Shown piece after piece: positions 27,231 through 34,288 of a DNA stretch of 64,000 nt; the first letter of the stretch is position 1, and every line of letters starts with the position of its first letter. Source of the stretch: Streptomyces sioyaensis. GTDB taxonomy: Bacteria > Actinomycetota > Actinomycetes > Streptomycetales > Streptomycetaceae. The stretch spans positions 62,001 through 126,000 of the forward strand of contig NZ_SDIF01000006.1 of the NCBI RefSeq assembly GCF_004122735.1, given 5' to 3'. Both the position numbers and the translations under genes were made by a program. Below the pieces are notes generated by a model that was given only the letters and a program-made list of their open reading frames with translations, did no database searches and had not been told where the DNA came from.

Positions 27231-28931
27231 CTAGTCCTCCGGCAGTTCCACCGGCGCGATCTCGTCGTACACATCGCCCGGGCCCGGGTTCGTCGCGTCC
27301 GTCGTGCCGCCGAAGTGGTGCATGACGCCCCACACCGCGTTGAGTGCGGTCTGCACCGCGCCCTCGGCCCAGCCCGCGGTCCAGGAGATGTCGTCGCCCG
27401 CGAGGAACAGGCCCCGCTTGTCCTCGGGGAGGCGGTCCTGCATGAAGTGCGTGAACAGGCGCCGCTGGTAGCGGTAGTGGCCGGGCAGGTTCGCCTTGAA
27501 GGCGCCCATGAAGTACGGCTCGTTCTCCCAGGACACGGTGACCGGGTTGCCGATGATGTGCTTGCGGATGTCGACCTTCGGATAGATCTCCGAGAGCGAC
27601 TTCAGCATGACCTCCATCCGCTCGTTCGCCTCCAGCGGCAGCCACTTGAGGCTGTCGTCGCACCAGGTGTAGGAGAGGCAGATGACGGCGGGTTCGTCCG
27701 GGCCGTTGTCGAGCAGATACGTCCCGCGGGTCATCCGGTCCGTCAGCGTCATCGACATCACGTCCCGGCCGGTGTCCTCGTCCTTGTCGAGCCAGAACGG
27801 CCGGTCGACGGGCACGAAGAGCTTGCTGGACTCCATGTAGTGGGTGCGCTCCATCGCCGTCCAGTGGTCGATGGGGAACAGCGAGTCGTCGCAGGCGATC
27901 TTGCTCAGCAGCATCCAGGACTGCGCGGTGAAGACGGCGGCCTCGTAGGTGCGGATGTCGCCGTCCGCGTCGGTGACGGTGACGCGGTTGCCGGCGGTGC
28001 GGTTCAGGCGGGTCACCGCCGGCCGGGGCGCGCCGTCGTGCAGCGACGACAGCGAGGTGCCCGGCGCCCAGTGCACGATCTTCTGCGGCTCGCGCTCCCA
28101 CAGGCGCAGCGGCAGCTGCTGGCTGCCGCCGACGATGCCGCGGTGGTGGTCGTCGGCCTCGGTGTAGACGACCCGCAGGATCTCCAGGATGGAGTTGGGG
28201 AAGTCGGTGTCCCAGCCACCGGTGCCGAAGCCGACCTGGCCGAAGATCTCCCGGTGGCGGAAGGACTTGAAGGCCGTCGAGTCGCAGAGGTAGCCGTAGA
28301 AGGTCTGGTTGTCGAGCTTCTCGACGAGCCGGGACCAGATCTCGCGGATGCGCGGGACGTCGCGCTCGCGGATCGCCTGGTTCATGTCGGAGAAGTCGGC
28401 GCCCTCTTCCAGGCAGGCGTTCCAGGCGTCCATGACCTGGTGGTAGACCTCGGGGAGGTCCTCGACCGTACGCGCGTAGTGGGACTCGCCCTTGAGGTCG
28501 ACGACGGTCGAGGGGGTGTCCGGCGCCAGCGGGTTGGGGAACGGCTTGGTCGTCAGGCCCACCAGGTCGATGTAGTGCTGCAGCGCCGTCGAGGACGGCG
28601 GGAAGCGCATCGCGCCCATCTCGGCGGTCAGGCCCGCCGCTTCGGACGGGGTGCCCTCGAAGCCTACGGTGCGCAGCCGCCCGCCTATTTGGTCGGCCTC
28701 GTAGACGACGGGCCGAAGGCCCATCTTCATCAGCTCATAGGCGGTGATGATGCCCGAGAGGCCGCCGCCGATGACCGCGACCTCCTTCCCGTGCTCGGTC
28801 GCGGGGACCTGGCCCAGGCCCGCCGGGTGGGCGAGGAAATCGTCATAGGCGTACGGGAAGTCCGGGCCGAACATGGTGATCGGGGGCTGGGCATCCGCGT
28901 GGTGGGCGGCGGTGGGCACCGTGGACGTCAT
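27231..28931 (-). CDS. Flavin monoamine oxidase family, DavB/IaaM-like L-amino-acid 2-monooxygenase
   Basis: A 566-aa flavoenzyme. N-terminal FGPDFPYAYDDFLAHPAGLG is characteristic of the lysine/tryptophan 2-monooxygenase group. The FAD motif AVIGGGLSGIITAYELMKMG lies near 50, EMGAMRFPPSS near 105, and the C-terminal FAD segment GLFLAGDDISWTAGWAEGAVQTALNAVWG near 515. These stretches resemble Pseudomonas DavB, as remembered. The enzyme would convert L-lysine or L-arginine with O2 to the shortened amide, CO2 and water. The downstream amidase step is provided by the gene 121 nt upstream on the same strand. Which basic amino acid is used cannot be decided here. Simple amine oxidase activity is the alternative. 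Confidence 0.8.
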   Translation of the reverse strand: MTSTVPTAAHHADAQPPITMFGPDFPYAYDDFLAHPAGLGQVPATEHGKEVAVIGGGLSGIITAYELMKMGLRPVVYEADQIGGRLRTVGFEGTPSEAAGLTAEMGAMRFPPSSTALQHYIDLVGLTTKPFPNPLAPDTPSTVVDLKGESHYARTVEDLPEVYHQVMDAWNACLEEGADFSDMNQAIRERDVPRIREIWSRLVEKLDNQTFYGYLCDSTAFKSFRHREIFGQVGFGTGGWDTDFPNSILEILRVVYTEADDHHRGIVGGSQQLPLRLWEREPQKIVHWAPGTSLSSLHDGAPRPAVTRLNRTAGNRVTVTDADGDIRTYEAAVFTAQSWMLLSKIACDDSLFPIDHWTAMERTHYMESSKLFVPVDRPFWLDKDEDTGRDVMSMTLTDRMTRGTYLLDNGPDEPAVICLSYTWCDDSLKWLPLEANERMEVMLKSLSEIYPKVDIRKHIIGNPVTVSWENEPYFMGAFKANLPGHYRYQRRLFTHFMQDRLPEDKRGLFLAGDDISWTAGWAEGAVQTALNAVWGVMHHFGGTTDATNPGPGDVYDEIAPVELPED

Positions 28932-29052
28932 CGGGGACGGACTCCTTGCAAGACAGGGCACAGCAGGCAGGGCAGTACAGGCCGGCGGGACCGGCCCGCG
29001 GCGGGGCAGGGGGAAGCAGAAGAACGAGGGGAGGGCGGGCGGATCGGTTGGG

Positions 29053-29916
29053 TCAGGTCAGCGGGCCGTACAGCTCCGGCCGCCGGTCGTGCAGGTACGG
29101 GTTGTCCACCCGGGATTCCTTCAGGAAGGCGGGGTCGACCTCGGCCCGCACCAGCTGTTCGGTGCGTCCGGCGCGGGTGCGTACGACACCGTCGGGGCCG
29201 GCCAGGCAGCTGAGGCCGACGAACTCGAACTCGCCCTCCGCGCCGACCCGGTTGACGTACGCGACGTACATCTGGTTCTCGAAGGCGCGGACCGGGATGA
29301 CGGACTCGGCGACGAACTGGAAGGGGTGCATCTGCGCGGTGGGCACCAGCAGCAGATCGGTGCCGGCCAGCGCGTGGGCCCGGACGTTCTCCGGGAACTC
29401 CACGTCGTAGCAGATCATGACGCCGATCCGGAGGCCGCCCAGGTCGGCCTGGACGACGGCCTGCTCGCCCGGGGTGAACCACTCCCGTTCGAAGCAGCCG
29501 AAGAGATGGGTCTTGCGGTAGTTCGCGAGGCGCTCGCCGCTCCGCTTCGCTCCGCCTCTGCTCCAGCCAAGTCCTTCGGATGCAGAGCCGGGGCCGATGA
29601 GCTGCGCGGAGTTGTAGACCGCGGTGCTGTCGGGCTCGTCCCGGCCGGCGCGCTCGGGGTAGCCGTAGAGCACCGCGATGCCGTGTGCGGCGGCGATCTC
29701 CGCGATGGCCCGGGCGCTGTCGCCGTCGGCGGTCTCGGCGAGGCGGTGGACCCCGTCGCCGATGGCGTAGCCGGTCAGGAAGAGTTCCGGGCAGGCGAGC
29801 AGTCCGGCGCCGGTCGCGGCCGCCGCACGGGCCGCGTCGTCGAGGATCCGCAGGTTGTGCGCGACATCGCCGGGCCGTCCCGAACTCTGGAGCAGGGCGG
29901 TGTGCAGCGACGTCAT
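29053..29916 (-). CDS. Carbon-nitrogen hydrolase (nitrilase superfamily), DavA-like omega-amidase
   Basis: A 287-aa cytoplasmic amidase. The catalytic triad is in place: Glu in ACPELFLTGY, Lys in NYRKTHLFG, Cys in GVMICYDVEFPE. ATG at 29916. It is expected to hydrolyse the amide made by the following monooxygenase (5-aminovaleramide from lysine or 4-guanidinobutyramide from arginine). About 17 residues (GSASEGLGWSRGGAKRS) sit between IGP and GERLANYRKTH where relatives run on directly; they are encoded by an inserted hairpin-forming sequence. They lie in a surface loop just before the catalytic Lys, so activity may survive. Confidence 0.82.
   Translation of the reverse strand: MTSLHTALLQSSGRPGDVAHNLRILDDAARAAAATGAGLLACPELFLTGYAIGDGVHRLAETADGDSARAIAEIAAAHGIAVLYGYPERAGRDEPDSTAVYNSAQLIGPGSASEGLGWSRGGAKRSGERLANYRKTHLFGCFEREWFTPGEQAVVQADLGGLRIGVMICYDVEFPENVRAHALAGTDLLLVPTAQMHPFQFVAESVIPVRAFENQMYVAYVNRVGAEGEFEFVGLSCLAGPDGVVRTRAGRTEQLVRAEVDPAFLKESRVDNPYLHDRRPELYGPLT
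29539..29589. repeat. 51-bp in-frame insertion in the amidase gene
   Basis: Contains GCTCCGCTTCGCTCCGC and a hairpin (CTCTGC at 29556-29561 with GCAGAG at 29582-29587). Its length is exactly 17 codons and no stop is introduced. It looks like a dispersed palindromic element, but this was not compared with other copies. Confidence 0.4.
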
Positions 29917-30319
29917 GGGATCCCTCGGCGAGGTGGTGCGGGTGGACGCATTGACGGTACGGGCCGCCGGTGAGGCGGGACAAGGCGCCACCGTTGCGCG
30001 CTGCTGGACGATTCATTGCGCGTTCACGGGAATGTGCGGTGATTCGTTGCGCAGCGGCGGGGCCGGGGCAGCCGAGGCCGCCTCAGCGGTCCGGAGTAGG
30101 GGAAACCGCCGGTCAGGGCACGGAGAGGGATGCCGGGGCGGCGGTCGGGGCGCGTCGTGACTCAGGACGCGTGGCGACTCAGGGCGCCTAGTGGCCGTCA
30201 GGACGCCGTGGTGGCCGACATCGGCTGGACCGGAGGAGTGGGGCGCGGCGGTCAGGGCGCGTGGTGGGCCGGCATCCGGTGGGCCGGAGTGTGTGGCGTG
30301 GCTCCCAGGGACGGCCGGA
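29917..30319. other. Amidase promoter region with operator boxes
   Basis: No gene. Operator-like boxes lie at 29994-30052 (next entry). The right half (30100-30300) is filled with short GGCGGTCAGGGCGCGTGGTG-like imperfect repeats and shows no coding pattern. Confidence 0.5.
29990..30053. promoter_or_regulatory. Three TTGCGC boxes upstream of the amidase-monooxygenase unit
   Basis: TTGCGC occurs at 29994-29999, 30016-30021 and 30047-30052, spaced 22 and 31 nt. The last two are in the longer context GATTCRTTGCGC. The same three-box pattern stands upstream of the permease-Lrp unit with nearly the same spacing. Probable operator for the neighbouring Lrp/AsnC-type regulator. Confidence 0.55.
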
Positions 30320-30775
30320 TCAGCGCGGCGCCCCCGACCCGTACCGCCGCAGCAGCGGCGAGAGCACCAGCACGGACTTGGTCCGCTCCACGAACGGTTC
30401 GCCGGCGATCCGCTCCAGCACCCGCTCGAAATGCCGCATGTCGGCGGCGAAGACCTGGACGATGGCGTCCGCCTCACCGGTCACGGTGGAGGCGGACGCC
30501 ACTTCCGGGTAGCGCGACAGGCCGCGGTGGATCGCCTCGGGCGAGGTGTTCCGGCGGCAGTAGAGCTCGATGACCCCTTCGGTCTCCCAGCCGAGCGCGG
30601 CCGGGTCCACCCGTACGGTGAAGCCGGTGATCGCGCCGTCCGCCCGCAGCCGGTCCACCCGGCGCTTGACGGCCGGCGCGGAGAGTCCGACCTCCTGGCC
30701 GATGTCGGCGTAGCTGCGGCGGGCGTCCTCGGCGAGGGCGTGGACGATGCGTTCGTCGAGATCGTTCAGTCGCAC
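30320..30775 (-). CDS. Lrp/AsnC family transcriptional regulator
   Basis: A 151-aa regulator. The GTG at 30775 is chosen because the family domain begins directly with LNDLDERIVHALAEDARRS; the upstream in-frame codons overlap the permease gene. The winged HTH (about 1-60) contains YADIGQEVGLSAPAVKRRVDRL. The RAM ligand-binding domain (about 65-145) contains VTGEADAIVQVFA. Proteins of this type bind amino acids and act as octamers on repeated sites. It follows the amino-acid permease by 10 nt and is probably cotranscribed. Lysine or arginine as effector is inference from the neighbouring genes. Confidence 0.88.
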   Translation of the reverse strand: MRLNDLDERIVHALAEDARRSYADIGQEVGLSAPAVKRRVDRLRADGAITGFTVRVDPAALGWETEGVIELYCRRNTSPEAIHRGLSRYPEVASASTVTGEADAIVQVFAADMRHFERVLERIAGEPFVERTKSVLVLSPLLRRYGSGAPR

Positions 30776-30785
30776 TGCGGGTGGA

Positions 30786-32258
30786 TCACTTCTCTGCGGT
30801 GGCCAATCGGGAGCGGCGCAAGCCGTATCCGAAGTAGACCACAAGGCCCACGACCATCCAGACACCGAAGACGACCCAGGTCACGACGTCGAGGCTGGCC
30901 ATCATGCCGAGGCACAGCAGAAAGCCGATGATCGGGAAGAGCGGCGAGAGCGGGGTGCGGAAGCTGCGCGGCATGTCGGGCCGGGTGCGGCGCAGCACGA
31001 TCACCGCGACATTGACCAGCGCGAAGGCGAACAGGGTGCCGATGCTGGTGGCGTCGGCCAGCTGGCCCAGCGGCACCGCCGCGGCGAGCACCCCGCAGAA
31101 CAGCGACACGATCACGGTGTTGGCGCGCGGCGCCCCGCTCTTGGGGTGCACCTTGGAGAACACCTTCGGCACCAGCCCGTCCCGGGACATCGCGAAGAGG
31201 ATGCGGGTCTGGCCGTAGAGCACGGTCAGCACGACGCTGGCGATGGCGACCACCGCGCCGAGGGCGAGCAGCACCGCCCAGAAGCTCTGTCCGGTGACCG
31301 ACTTCATGATCCCGGCCAGTGCGGCCTCCGAGCCCTGGAACTTCTGCCAGGGCATGGCGCCCACGGCGATGGCCGCGACCAGGCAGTACAGCGTGGTGAC
31401 GATCACCAGCGAGAGCATGATCGCGCGCGGCATGTCGCGCTGCGGGTTCTTGGCCTCCTCGCCCGCGGTGGAGGCGGCATCGAAGCCTATGTACGAGAAG
31501 AACAGGGTCGCGCCGGCGGCGCTGACGCCCGTCATGCCCATCGGCATGAAGTTCGCGTAGTTGCCCGAGCGCACGCCCTGCAGCGCGACGCCGCAGAACA
31601 GCAGCAGCGCGACGATCTTGACGACGACCATGATCGTGTTGGCCCGGGCGCTCTCCTTGGCCCCGCCCAGCAGGAACACCATCGCCAGCAGCACGACCAC
31701 GAGCGCCGGCAGGTTGAAGATGCCACCGTCGCCGGGCGGCTGGGACAGCGCGTCCGGGATGGTGAAGCCGAAGACGCCGTCGAGGAGCTCGTTCAGATAC
31801 TGGCCCCAGCCCACCGCGACGGCCGCGACCGAGACGCCGTACTCCAGGATCAGACACCAGCCGCAGACCCAGGCGATCAGCTCGCCGAGGGTGGCGTAGG
31901 CGTAGGAGTAGGAGGATCCGGAGACCGGAATGGACCCGGCCAGCTCCGCGTAGGACAGCGCGGAGAACAGGGCGGTGATCCCGGCGAGGACGAAGGAGAG
32001 GATGACCGCGGGCCCGGCGTCCGGCACGGCGTTGCCGAGGACGACGAAGATGCCGGTGCCGAGCGTGGCACCGATGCTGATCATGGTCAGCTGCCACATG
32101 CCCATGGAGCGGCGGAGCTCTCCCCCCTGCCCCTTGCCGCCCTCGGCGACCAACCGCTCGACGGGCTTGCGCCGCATCAGCCGGGTGCCGAGTCCTCCGG
32201 GGGAGGGCGGTCCGGGGTCGCCGGCCCCTGCGGGCGGGGCTGCGCCGTGCTCCAACAC
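30786..32258 (-). CDS. APC-family amino acid permease (cationic amino acid transporter type)
   Basis: A 490-aa membrane protein starting at GTG with AAAGGAG 8 nt upstream. About 12-13 hydrophobic helices follow a basic 45-residue cytoplasmic N-terminus. MISIGATLGTGIFVVLG (helix 1, the substrate-binding glycine loop), FFSYIGFDAASTAGEEAKNP and RILFAMSRDGLVP are hallmarks of the CAT/YfnA branch. It is a likely importer of a basic amino acid, matching the catabolic enzymes downstream. It heads the unit permease-Lrp. Operator-like boxes lie 180-240 nt upstream. Confidence 0.88.
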   Translation of the reverse strand: MLEHGAAPPAGAGDPGPPSPGGLGTRLMRRKPVERLVAEGGKGQGGELRRSMGMWQLTMISIGATLGTGIFVVLGNAVPDAGPAVILSFVLAGITALFSALSYAELAGSIPVSGSSYSYAYATLGELIAWVCGWCLILEYGVSVAAVAVGWGQYLNELLDGVFGFTIPDALSQPPGDGGIFNLPALVVVLLAMVFLLGGAKESARANTIMVVVKIVALLLFCGVALQGVRSGNYANFMPMGMTGVSAAGATLFFSYIGFDAASTAGEEAKNPQRDMPRAIMLSLVIVTTLYCLVAAIAVGAMPWQKFQGSEAALAGIMKSVTGQSFWAVLLALGAVVAIASVVLTVLYGQTRILFAMSRDGLVPKVFSKVHPKSGAPRANTVIVSLFCGVLAAAVPLGQLADATSIGTLFAFALVNVAVIVLRRTRPDMPRSFRTPLSPLFPIIGFLLCLGMMASLDVVTWVVFGVWMVVGLVVYFGYGLRRSRLATAEK

Positions 32259-32435
32259 TGAAGTGGCTCCTTTATCGCTGCCGATCGATGACGTACGGAT
32301 GAGACGGCGACCGGCAGCGGTCGGGAGAAGGGCATGCCGAAGCACACCGCAGCAGGAGACCGCCGAGCAGGCGGTCCCCGCCACTCCACGTACAGCGCAT
32401 GACCTTACGGGCCCCGCTGACCTGCCGTAATGCAG

Positions 32436-32497
32436 GTTCCTTGCGTAACCGCGGATGATCATTGCGCACCGGCGCGGTGGACGATGGTTCGTTGCGC
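32436..32497. promoter_or_regulatory. Three TTGCGY boxes upstream of the permease-Lrp unit
   Basis: TTGCGT at 32441-32446, TTGCGC at 32462-32467 and at 32492... (TTGCGC 32492-32497), spaced 21 and 30 nt. Contexts GATCATTGCGC and GGTTCGTTGCGC match the boxes before the amidase gene. Orientation relative to the downstream gene is also the same. Probable Lrp-type operator giving co-regulation and autoregulation. Confidence 0.55.
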
Positions 32498-32566
32498 GCC
32501 AGGGTGAGATCGTAACGGCCGCCTCCGGACGGGCCGCGAACCGGGTCCGATGGTTCCGGATACGCC

Positions 32567-32599
32567 ACCGGCCCCGCACCGGGTCGGTGCGGGGCCGGT
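32567..32599 (-). terminator. guaB1 terminator hairpin
   Basis: Perfect 14-bp stem, ACCGGCCCCGCACC (32567-32580) and its complement (32586-32599), 5-nt loop, 37 nt past the stop. Confidence 0.75.
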
Positions 32600-32635
32600 C
32601 AACGGCGTGCGGGGCTCTTTGCGGCCCCTCGGCGG

Positions 32636-34288
<1,653 letters not shown>

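Follow-up and report, generated by a model that had tools for sequence, protein, structure and literature searches.

The window analysed here is a stretch of 64,000 nucleotides from Streptomyces sioyaensis (contig NZ_SDIF01000006.1, positions 62,001 to 126,000 of the forward strand), and the element under study is an array of three short boxes found in front of each of two neighbouring minus-strand operons, one predicted for the breakdown and the other for the uptake of amino acids, with the gene of an Lrp/AsnC-family regulator lying between the two arrays. In window coordinates, the genes concerned are the following:

27231–28931, minus strand: flavin amine oxidase family, probable basic-amino-acid 2-monooxygenase (PF01593, homology to 3WE0)
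29053–29916, minus strand: carbon-nitrogen hydrolase, probable pathway amidase (PF00795)
30320–30775, minus strand: regulator of the Lrp/AsnC family, following the permease gene after 10 nt (PF13404, PF01037)
30786–32258, minus strand: amino-acid permease of the APC family, opening the permease-Lrp operon (TIGR00909 above cut-off, PF13520)

The regulator carries both parts that characterise the Lrp/AsnC family, an AsnC-type helix-turn-helix (PF13404, 59.1 bits, cut-off 27) and the Lrp/AsnC ligand-binding domain (PF01037, 54.4 bits, cut-off 25). The initial annotation had described six TTGCGC/T boxes around it, and the window sequence bore out their positions (29994, 30016, and 30047 on the amidase side; 32441, 32462, and 32492 on the permease side), their spacings (22/31 and 21/30, respectively), and the longer sequence context ascribed to the distal boxes. 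Read along transcription, all four genes being on the minus strand, the boxes become RCGCAA, each of the six contains CGCAA, and their order is box 1, box 2, box 3, promoter, gene:

30037–30051, minus strand: amidase operator, box 1, a 15-bp unit starting with CGCAA (from sequence; register conserved)
30006–30020, minus strand: amidase operator, box 2, 31 nt after box 1 (from sequence and conservation)
29984–29998, minus strand: amidase operator, box 3, 22 nt after box 2 and directly against the predicted -35
32482–32496, minus strand: permease operator, box 1 (from sequence and alignment)
32452–32466, minus strand: permease operator, box 2, 30 nt after box 1 (from sequence and alignment)
32431–32445, minus strand: permease operator, box 3, 21 nt after box 2 and directly against the predicted -35

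The TTGCGY hexamer alone was not enriched in the window, where it was rarer (38 occurrences) than expected (54). As a triplet, in contrast, RCGCAA at the observed spacings, searched as a regular expression, matched exactly these two places in the window and had no match in 12 Mb of simulated first-order Markov sequence, far from what chance would give. The initial annotation had called for a search for equal triplets elsewhere, and a stricter three-box pattern (CGCAAYGA-N20-22-RCGCAAYG-N13-15-CGCAA) matched the own genome of 7.85 Mb twice, each time at this locus, and its reversed controls not at all; a pattern made of boxes 1 and 2 only returned the same two places. Loose CGCAR triplets numbered six in the own genome, two of them at this locus and one at an Lrp paralogue, the other three being CGCAG triplets elsewhere (L225, L226, L230; L and G numbers denote loci and genomes), and the reversed control also gave one. 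A global Lrp regulon of the E. coli type has many targets genome-wide; such a regulon was rejected here on the count of three-box arrays, as the genome holds two exact triplets and few loose ones.

Across 100 genomes, the own one included, the exact three-box pattern gave 62 matches in 54 genomes, and the reversed pattern none. By coordinates, 59 of the 62 lay near an Lrp or monooxygenase gene, whereas the remaining three were located before a dimethylargininase-like gene (two, in G075; L123, L232) or before a relocated amidase gene (one, in G012). Half-turn controls, with 5 taken from or added to both spacings, gave no match each in 61 genomes (37 of them same-genus), 35 of which had matches at the true spacing. 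Of the 61 same-genus genomes, the own one among them, 59 had a monooxygenase orthologue (84–100% identity), whose upstream region was taken as far as the contig reached. As for the proposed check of conservation in relatives, a scan with a three-box matrix found the array at 58 of these 59 monooxygenase loci, in 54 cases before the amidase gene and in four directly before the monooxygenase gene, no amidase gene being found in the fetched stretch of the latter. The spacing was 31/22 in 52 of the 54 amidase arrays, and among same-genus permease upstream regions the array was present in 21 of 22, 20 of them at 30/21 (L033, L034, L044, and L047 were left out of the permease counts for too little upstream sequence, and L088, L089, and L101, which fitted the permease alignment poorly, were dropped from the permease matrix). 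The array is thus conserved as a cassette, standing before amidase or monooxygenase and before permease in nearly all same-genus loci. The amidase-side alignment (53 rows) showed strong conservation of box 1, box 2 (+31), box 3 (+53), TTGTCC (+69), and TACCGT (+93) with variable spacers, core box and promoter columns holding 1.2–2.0 bits and columns between boxes about 0.1–1.0. The 23 permease-side rows had their boxes at -30, 0, and +21, with TTACGG and TAGGNT following box 3 at the same distance. In loci L062, L065, and L198, an aldehyde dehydrogenase gene replaces the permease upstream of the Lrp gene, and no array was found before it in these fetched loci.

The conserved hexamers downstream of box 3 were read as promoter elements from sequence and from conservation of their offsets:

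29978–29983, minus strand: amidase promoter, predicted -35 TTGTCC
29954–29959, minus strand: amidase promoter, predicted -10 TACCGT after a spacer of 18 bp
32425–32430, minus strand: permease promoter, predicted -35 TTACGG
32402–32407, minus strand: permease promoter, predicted -10 TAAGGT after a spacer of 17 bp, offset 38

A TTG or TTA starting 15 nt after the CGCAA of box 3 was found in 94 of 95 distinct amidase promoters, in 54 of 60 permease promoters and in all 18 promoters of the paralogue set described below, and TANNNT occurred at offset 38 or 39 in 95/95 amidase, 57/60 permease, 24/24 dimethylargininase, and 18/18 paralogue promoters. L088, L089, and L101 were left out of these promoter counts and of the half-site counts given below, as were L062 and L080 (spacings 31/21 and 31/20) from the amidase set and L106, L114, L115, and L118 from the 24 dimethylargininase promoters; operators of the 80-locus scan (see below) scoring below 20 or without an assigned gene were dropped. 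The helical phasing assumed in the initial annotation held, with 30–31 nt (about three turns) between boxes 1 and 2 and 21–22 nt (about two turns) between boxes 2 and 3, and these spacings together with the fixed -35 offset place the boxes on a single face of the helix. With its predicted centre near -43, box 3 lies directly against the predicted -35, and boxes 2 and 1 lie on the same face, about two and five turns further upstream. Class II activator sites are centred near -41 to -43 and abut the -35, and this is the position that box 3 would occupy at the predicted promoters.

Lrp orthologues of at least 80% identity were detected in 58 of the 61 same-genus genomes. Lrp and monooxygenase were both present in 58 and both absent from two (G037, G050), while G028, an assembly of about 1300 contigs, showed monooxygenase and array only, with no Lrp orthologue in its fragmented sequence. 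The monooxygenase locus is far from the Lrp gene in some genomes (e.g., G023, G012), where the factor would thus act in trans. From other groups, 13 regions with Lrp homologues of 51–66% identity (L106–L118) were analysed, and 10 of them had the array at 30–31/21–22 with scores of at least 30, the best matrix score in 400 kb of simulated sequence being 10.0; no array was found in L113, and those of L114 and L115 were weak. A profile scan with an alignment of 11 Lrp proteins, from which the best 80 among the matches listed were taken, provided 57 loci from Streptomyces and close genera and 23 others, according to our own grouping, three of the scanned genomes being also in the first genome set. 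In the former the array was found at 47/47 amidase and 42/45 permease promoters, and in the latter at 15 of 17 dimethylargininase-like promoters. These other-family loci include Cellulomonas, Nonomuraea, Streptosporangium, Sphaerisporangium, Actinopolymorpha, Pseudonocardia, and Sporichthya, and their array usually stands at 31/21 before the dimethylargininase-like gene, which was assigned through NCBIfam NF045659 (406 bits, cut-off 300, for the L114 copy). When both spacings were left free (14 to 45 each, 1024 spacings), 28 of the 37 loci that came from neither Streptomyces nor its close genera peaked at 30–31/21–22, although these 28 peaks are not independent events, several loci being closely related. 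Conservation and co-occurrence with Lrp therefore support the earlier proposal that the shared operator is linked to the Lrp gene lying between both units, and neither of the refuting outcomes named with it, boxes not kept in related species or many such triplets at other places, was observed.

Three further arrangements were seen at such loci. In L107–L111 (G072, G067, G070, G062, G065), the dimethylargininase start codon, at 105 nt from the first base of box 1, follows the predicted -10 by about 8–9 nt, which suggests a leaderless message. In L144 (at 5664, Streptomyces sp. SCUT-3) the array lies 334 nt upstream of the Lrp gene itself, and in L145 (at 5819 and 6511, Yinghuangia seranimata) it precedes a divergent permease gene.

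A paralogous Lrp (E <= 1e-50) was found in the own genome and in 18 of 75 relatives, and its recognition helix, where read, was mostly LSATAVKRR. At 18 of 19 paralogue loci, CGCAG-type boxes were present at 31/21 just after the paralogue gene, with ACGCAGCATTCCTGCGC as the consensus of box 2 and with TTG once more 15 nt behind box 3 (L208, whose best scan match was elsewhere, was left out of the paralogue set). The helix LSA[P/S]AVKRR was accompanied by CGCAA in 309 of 348 boxes and by CGCAG in two, and the helix LSATAVKRR by CGCAG in 32 of 42. This count covers the loci of the 80-locus scan, the 18 paralogue loci and ten others (L106–L112, L116–L118), L033–L090 not being part of it, and nine boxes fell outside both totals, three with helix TVA and six with no helix found. 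Such covariation between helix and box supports, without proving it, a contact between protein and DNA. Boxes 1 and 2 of the paralogue arrays were near-perfect 15-bp inverted repeats (16/18 each), which suggests that the boxes of the present operon are not 6-mers but the strong left halves of 15-bp units whose right halves are degenerate. Another Lrp paralogue of the own genome (L119; G000 contig 207, 131000–143000), with helix LSAPAAKRRLDR, is accompanied at about 6405 by a weak array (score 18.0, spacing 30/21) that precedes a divergent gene and has the differing boxes TGCAA, AGCAA, and GACAA.

The explanation that we consider probable is that both operons carry a fixed three-box array set against the -35, likely bound by three dimers of the intervening Lrp, which we predict to be the local activator of both. 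The three dimers would assemble into a single complex wrapping or bending some 70 bp of DNA, this complex would be altered by a basic amino acid, be it lysine, arginine, or ornithine, and the dimer at box 3 would help RNA polymerase as a class II activator; as the Lrp gene lies inside the permease operon, the loop would include autoregulation. The presence of the array before a dimethylargininase-like gene in other actinobacterial families suggests that, on the Streptomyces side, the monooxygenase pathway was drawn into an older basic-amino-acid regulon. Activation is predicted with a clear preference over repression, from promoter geometry only, because box 3 sits in the place of a class II activator and because archaeal Lrp activators are similar, with a dimer site just upstream of the core promoter and further sites behind it (PMC2995911). 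A more general version, which we put forward tentatively and hold at somewhat less than even confidence, is that of an actinobacterial Lrp subfamily with one hard-wired cassette (box-31-box-21/22-box-15-(-35)), whose three dimers would be a single activating complex with the last dimer touching RNA polymerase. One-base differences in spacing (30/21 for uptake, 31/22 for breakdown, mostly 31/21 for dimethylargininase) would set response thresholds, and the sequence of the boxes would change with the recognition helix as the geometry stays fixed.

Several points weigh against the favoured explanation. The matrix was trained on Streptomyces sites, so that scores there are circular; the independent tests are the exact patterns, the half-turn shifts, and the loci outside the genus, several of the latter being close relatives of one another. 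Within the genus, L058 (G012) is the sole monooxygenase locus without array, an amidase gene with the array being located elsewhere in that genome. No clear array was found in the permease regions of L089, L134, L179, and L182. No array at these spacings was detected beside the Lrp homologues of L127, L131, L135, L151, L183, and L195, in addition to L113, and L160 joins L114 and L115 among those with weak arrays. Arrays were also absent from L101, from the second monooxygenase copies L102–L105, and from the 10 monooxygenase-amidase loci of another family of the same order (L091–L100, L100 having little upstream sequence). That same family nevertheless has the cassette of Lrp and dimethylargininase (L107–L112), so that recruitment of the monooxygenase pathway looks to have occurred on the Streptomyces side. 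The dimethylargininase promoters had TTG or TTA at offset 15 in only 12 of 24 cases. As for the 15-bp dimer site, it rests mainly on paralogue boxes 1 and 2, right half-sites being weak in the amidase boxes (mean 1.1–2.0 of 5 matches; 0/98 with 4 of 5) and present in 16 of 62 permease boxes 2, and, with respect to covariation, the search for the paralogue sites itself used CGCAG, and the helix changed in a single event at clade level. Finally, an operator set against the -35 could also repress.

This last point leads to the rival in which this Lrp complex, bound to the same boxes, acts mainly as a repressor, its three dimers wrapping the DNA and blocking the promoter until a basic amino acid loosens them. 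Such a block would suit a box 3 abutting the predicted -35, promoters with readable -35 and -10 elements, and the report that occupation of all three sites of the archaeal Ss-LrpB, with looping, is repressive (PMC6497280). However, the boxes stay a constant 38–39 nt upstream of the predicted -10 in nearly all promoters, none of them covering the -10 or the start site, and the dimer site of archaeal Lrp activators likewise lies just upstream of the core promoter (PMC2995911), so we regard a mainly repressive role as rather unlikely. It is far less probable that some other regulator binds the boxes and that the adjacent Lrp gene is a mere neighbour: the genomes with distant monooxygenase and Lrp genes (e.g., G023, G012) and the array of G028 without an Lrp orthologue in its fragmented assembly would fit, but the two genes are present or absent together across the 61 genomes (58 both, 2 neither, 1 fragmented), the array accompanies Lrp homologues in other families, and the paralogous Lrp has a variant array of its own whose boxes covary with the helix. 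As for chance or recent common ancestry, in which GC-rich hexamers had lined up and been kept by close kinship, the lack of enrichment of the hexamer in the window is in its favour, but the sequence between boxes has diverged and the boxes have not, the same geometry recurs at two non-homologous promoters, in other families, and at the paralogue, and the reversed and half-turn-shifted patterns gave zero matches. The controls, the divergence between boxes, and the other families refute this explanation, to which we give next to no credence.

Regarding the pathway, the closest solved relative of the monooxygenase is the L-amino acid oxidase/monooxygenase of Pseudomonas sp. AIU 813 (3WE0, E = 4.4e-241), whose substrate-selecting Asp238 is kept in the alignment (with an inferred numbering offset of 20; PMC5832979); both this relatedness and the acidic residue at position 238 are those of a basic-amino-acid 2-monooxygenase. 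In contrast, Cys254, described as the key residue for activity conversion in the AIU 813 enzyme (PMC5832979), is replaced by Ala; the comparison with that system covers the enzyme only. Homology (the 3WE0 match and the Asp238 equivalent) thus upholds the view of an amino-acid catabolic locus, specifically for basic-amino-acid breakdown, in which monooxygenase and carbon-nitrogen hydrolase would convert a basic amino acid to its amide and then to the acid. Asp238 fits lysine and arginine alike; the dimethylargininase targets point towards arginine metabolism, and the preference of the AIU 813 enzyme points towards lysine. S. lividans is described as having no arginine monooxygenase (PMC5082578). 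Should arginine be the substrate, the chemistry would be that by which some Streptomyces also make the starter of their arginine-derived polyketides (PMC5082578, PMC10322714). The second monooxygenase copies, of 63% identity, occur in four genomes (L102–L105; G031, G055, G058, G035), and no Lrp, amidase, permease, or array was found in their fetched upstream stretches; given the absence of the array, they may be candidates for a separate arginine monooxygenase.

The permease messenger has a leader (window 32258–32395) with a block at 32358–32393 of the minus strand, GTACGTGGAGTGGCGGNGACCGCC-TGCTC-GGCGGTC, that is conserved over Streptomyces (59 distinct leaders) and forms a strong hairpin with a largely fixed loop. 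A GTGGC in the leader may pair with bases just after the ribosome-binding site, and the changes were mostly one-sided, with few compensatory ones. An Rfam search of 29000–33000 gave six matches, all below gathering scores and none in the permease leader. The leader is possibly a second, RNA-level control of the permease-Lrp operon.

With respect to known systems, the statement of the initial annotation that no operator of this form had been described was too strong. The form is known in archaea, where Ss-LrpB and Ah-BarR have three regularly spaced 15-bp sites for Lrp dimers at two- or three-turn spacing (PMC2995911, PMC4046817, PMC10201364). Ss-LrpB of Sulfolobus solfataricus has three dimer sites in its own control region, with the 15-bp palindromic consensus TTGCAAAATTTGCAA, binds them cooperatively with wrapping of the DNA, regulates itself, and activates the neighbouring operon and two putative permease genes (PMC2995911, PMC4046817, PMC6497280). 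The core of its consensus, TTGC/GCAA, resembles the TTGCG/CGCAA of the present boxes, but its promoter is archaeal, whereas here a bacterial -35/-10 promoter is found with the third site abutting the -35, the near-exact spacing is kept across families, and two separate basic-amino-acid operons carry the array. Binding has been shown for Ss-LrpB, whereas for the present operator it is predicted from sequence. In Ah-BarR of Acidianus hospitalis, three regularly spaced 15-bp semipalindromic sites are separated by spacers of 17 and 27–29 bp, the longer corresponding to three helical turns (PMC10201364); it differs from our case in its divergent barR-aminotransferase region, its beta-alanine effector, and a spacing that varies between species, the present one being nearly fixed. 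The array shares with both archaeal systems three regular sites near the promoter of a linked gene, at two- and three-turn spacing on one face.

Among actinomycetes, Streptomyces Lrp regulators such as SCAB_Lrp2 are Lrp/AsnC proteins with known targets and effectors (PMC11609053); unlike the present boxes, the site reported for SCAB_Lrp2 is an 18-bp sequence without CGCAA, and no three-box array is described in the accessible text of that paper. In the accessible part of the open-licence literature searched, we found no report of the present operator or regulator in Streptomyces and no bacterial case with near-exact spacing over families, locked to the -35 and repeated at two operons of one locus. 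Natural sites bound by archaeal Lrp proteins are described as quite degenerate and not readily predicted (PMC2995911); here, in contrast, the geometry varies so little that sequence alone suffices to find sites. For the uptake and breakdown of basic amino acids in Streptomyces and its relatives, an operator, a regulator, and a set of targets are now available for testing, and the 30/21, 31/22, and 31/21 versions found in nature form a ready series on how dimer spacing controls an Lrp complex.

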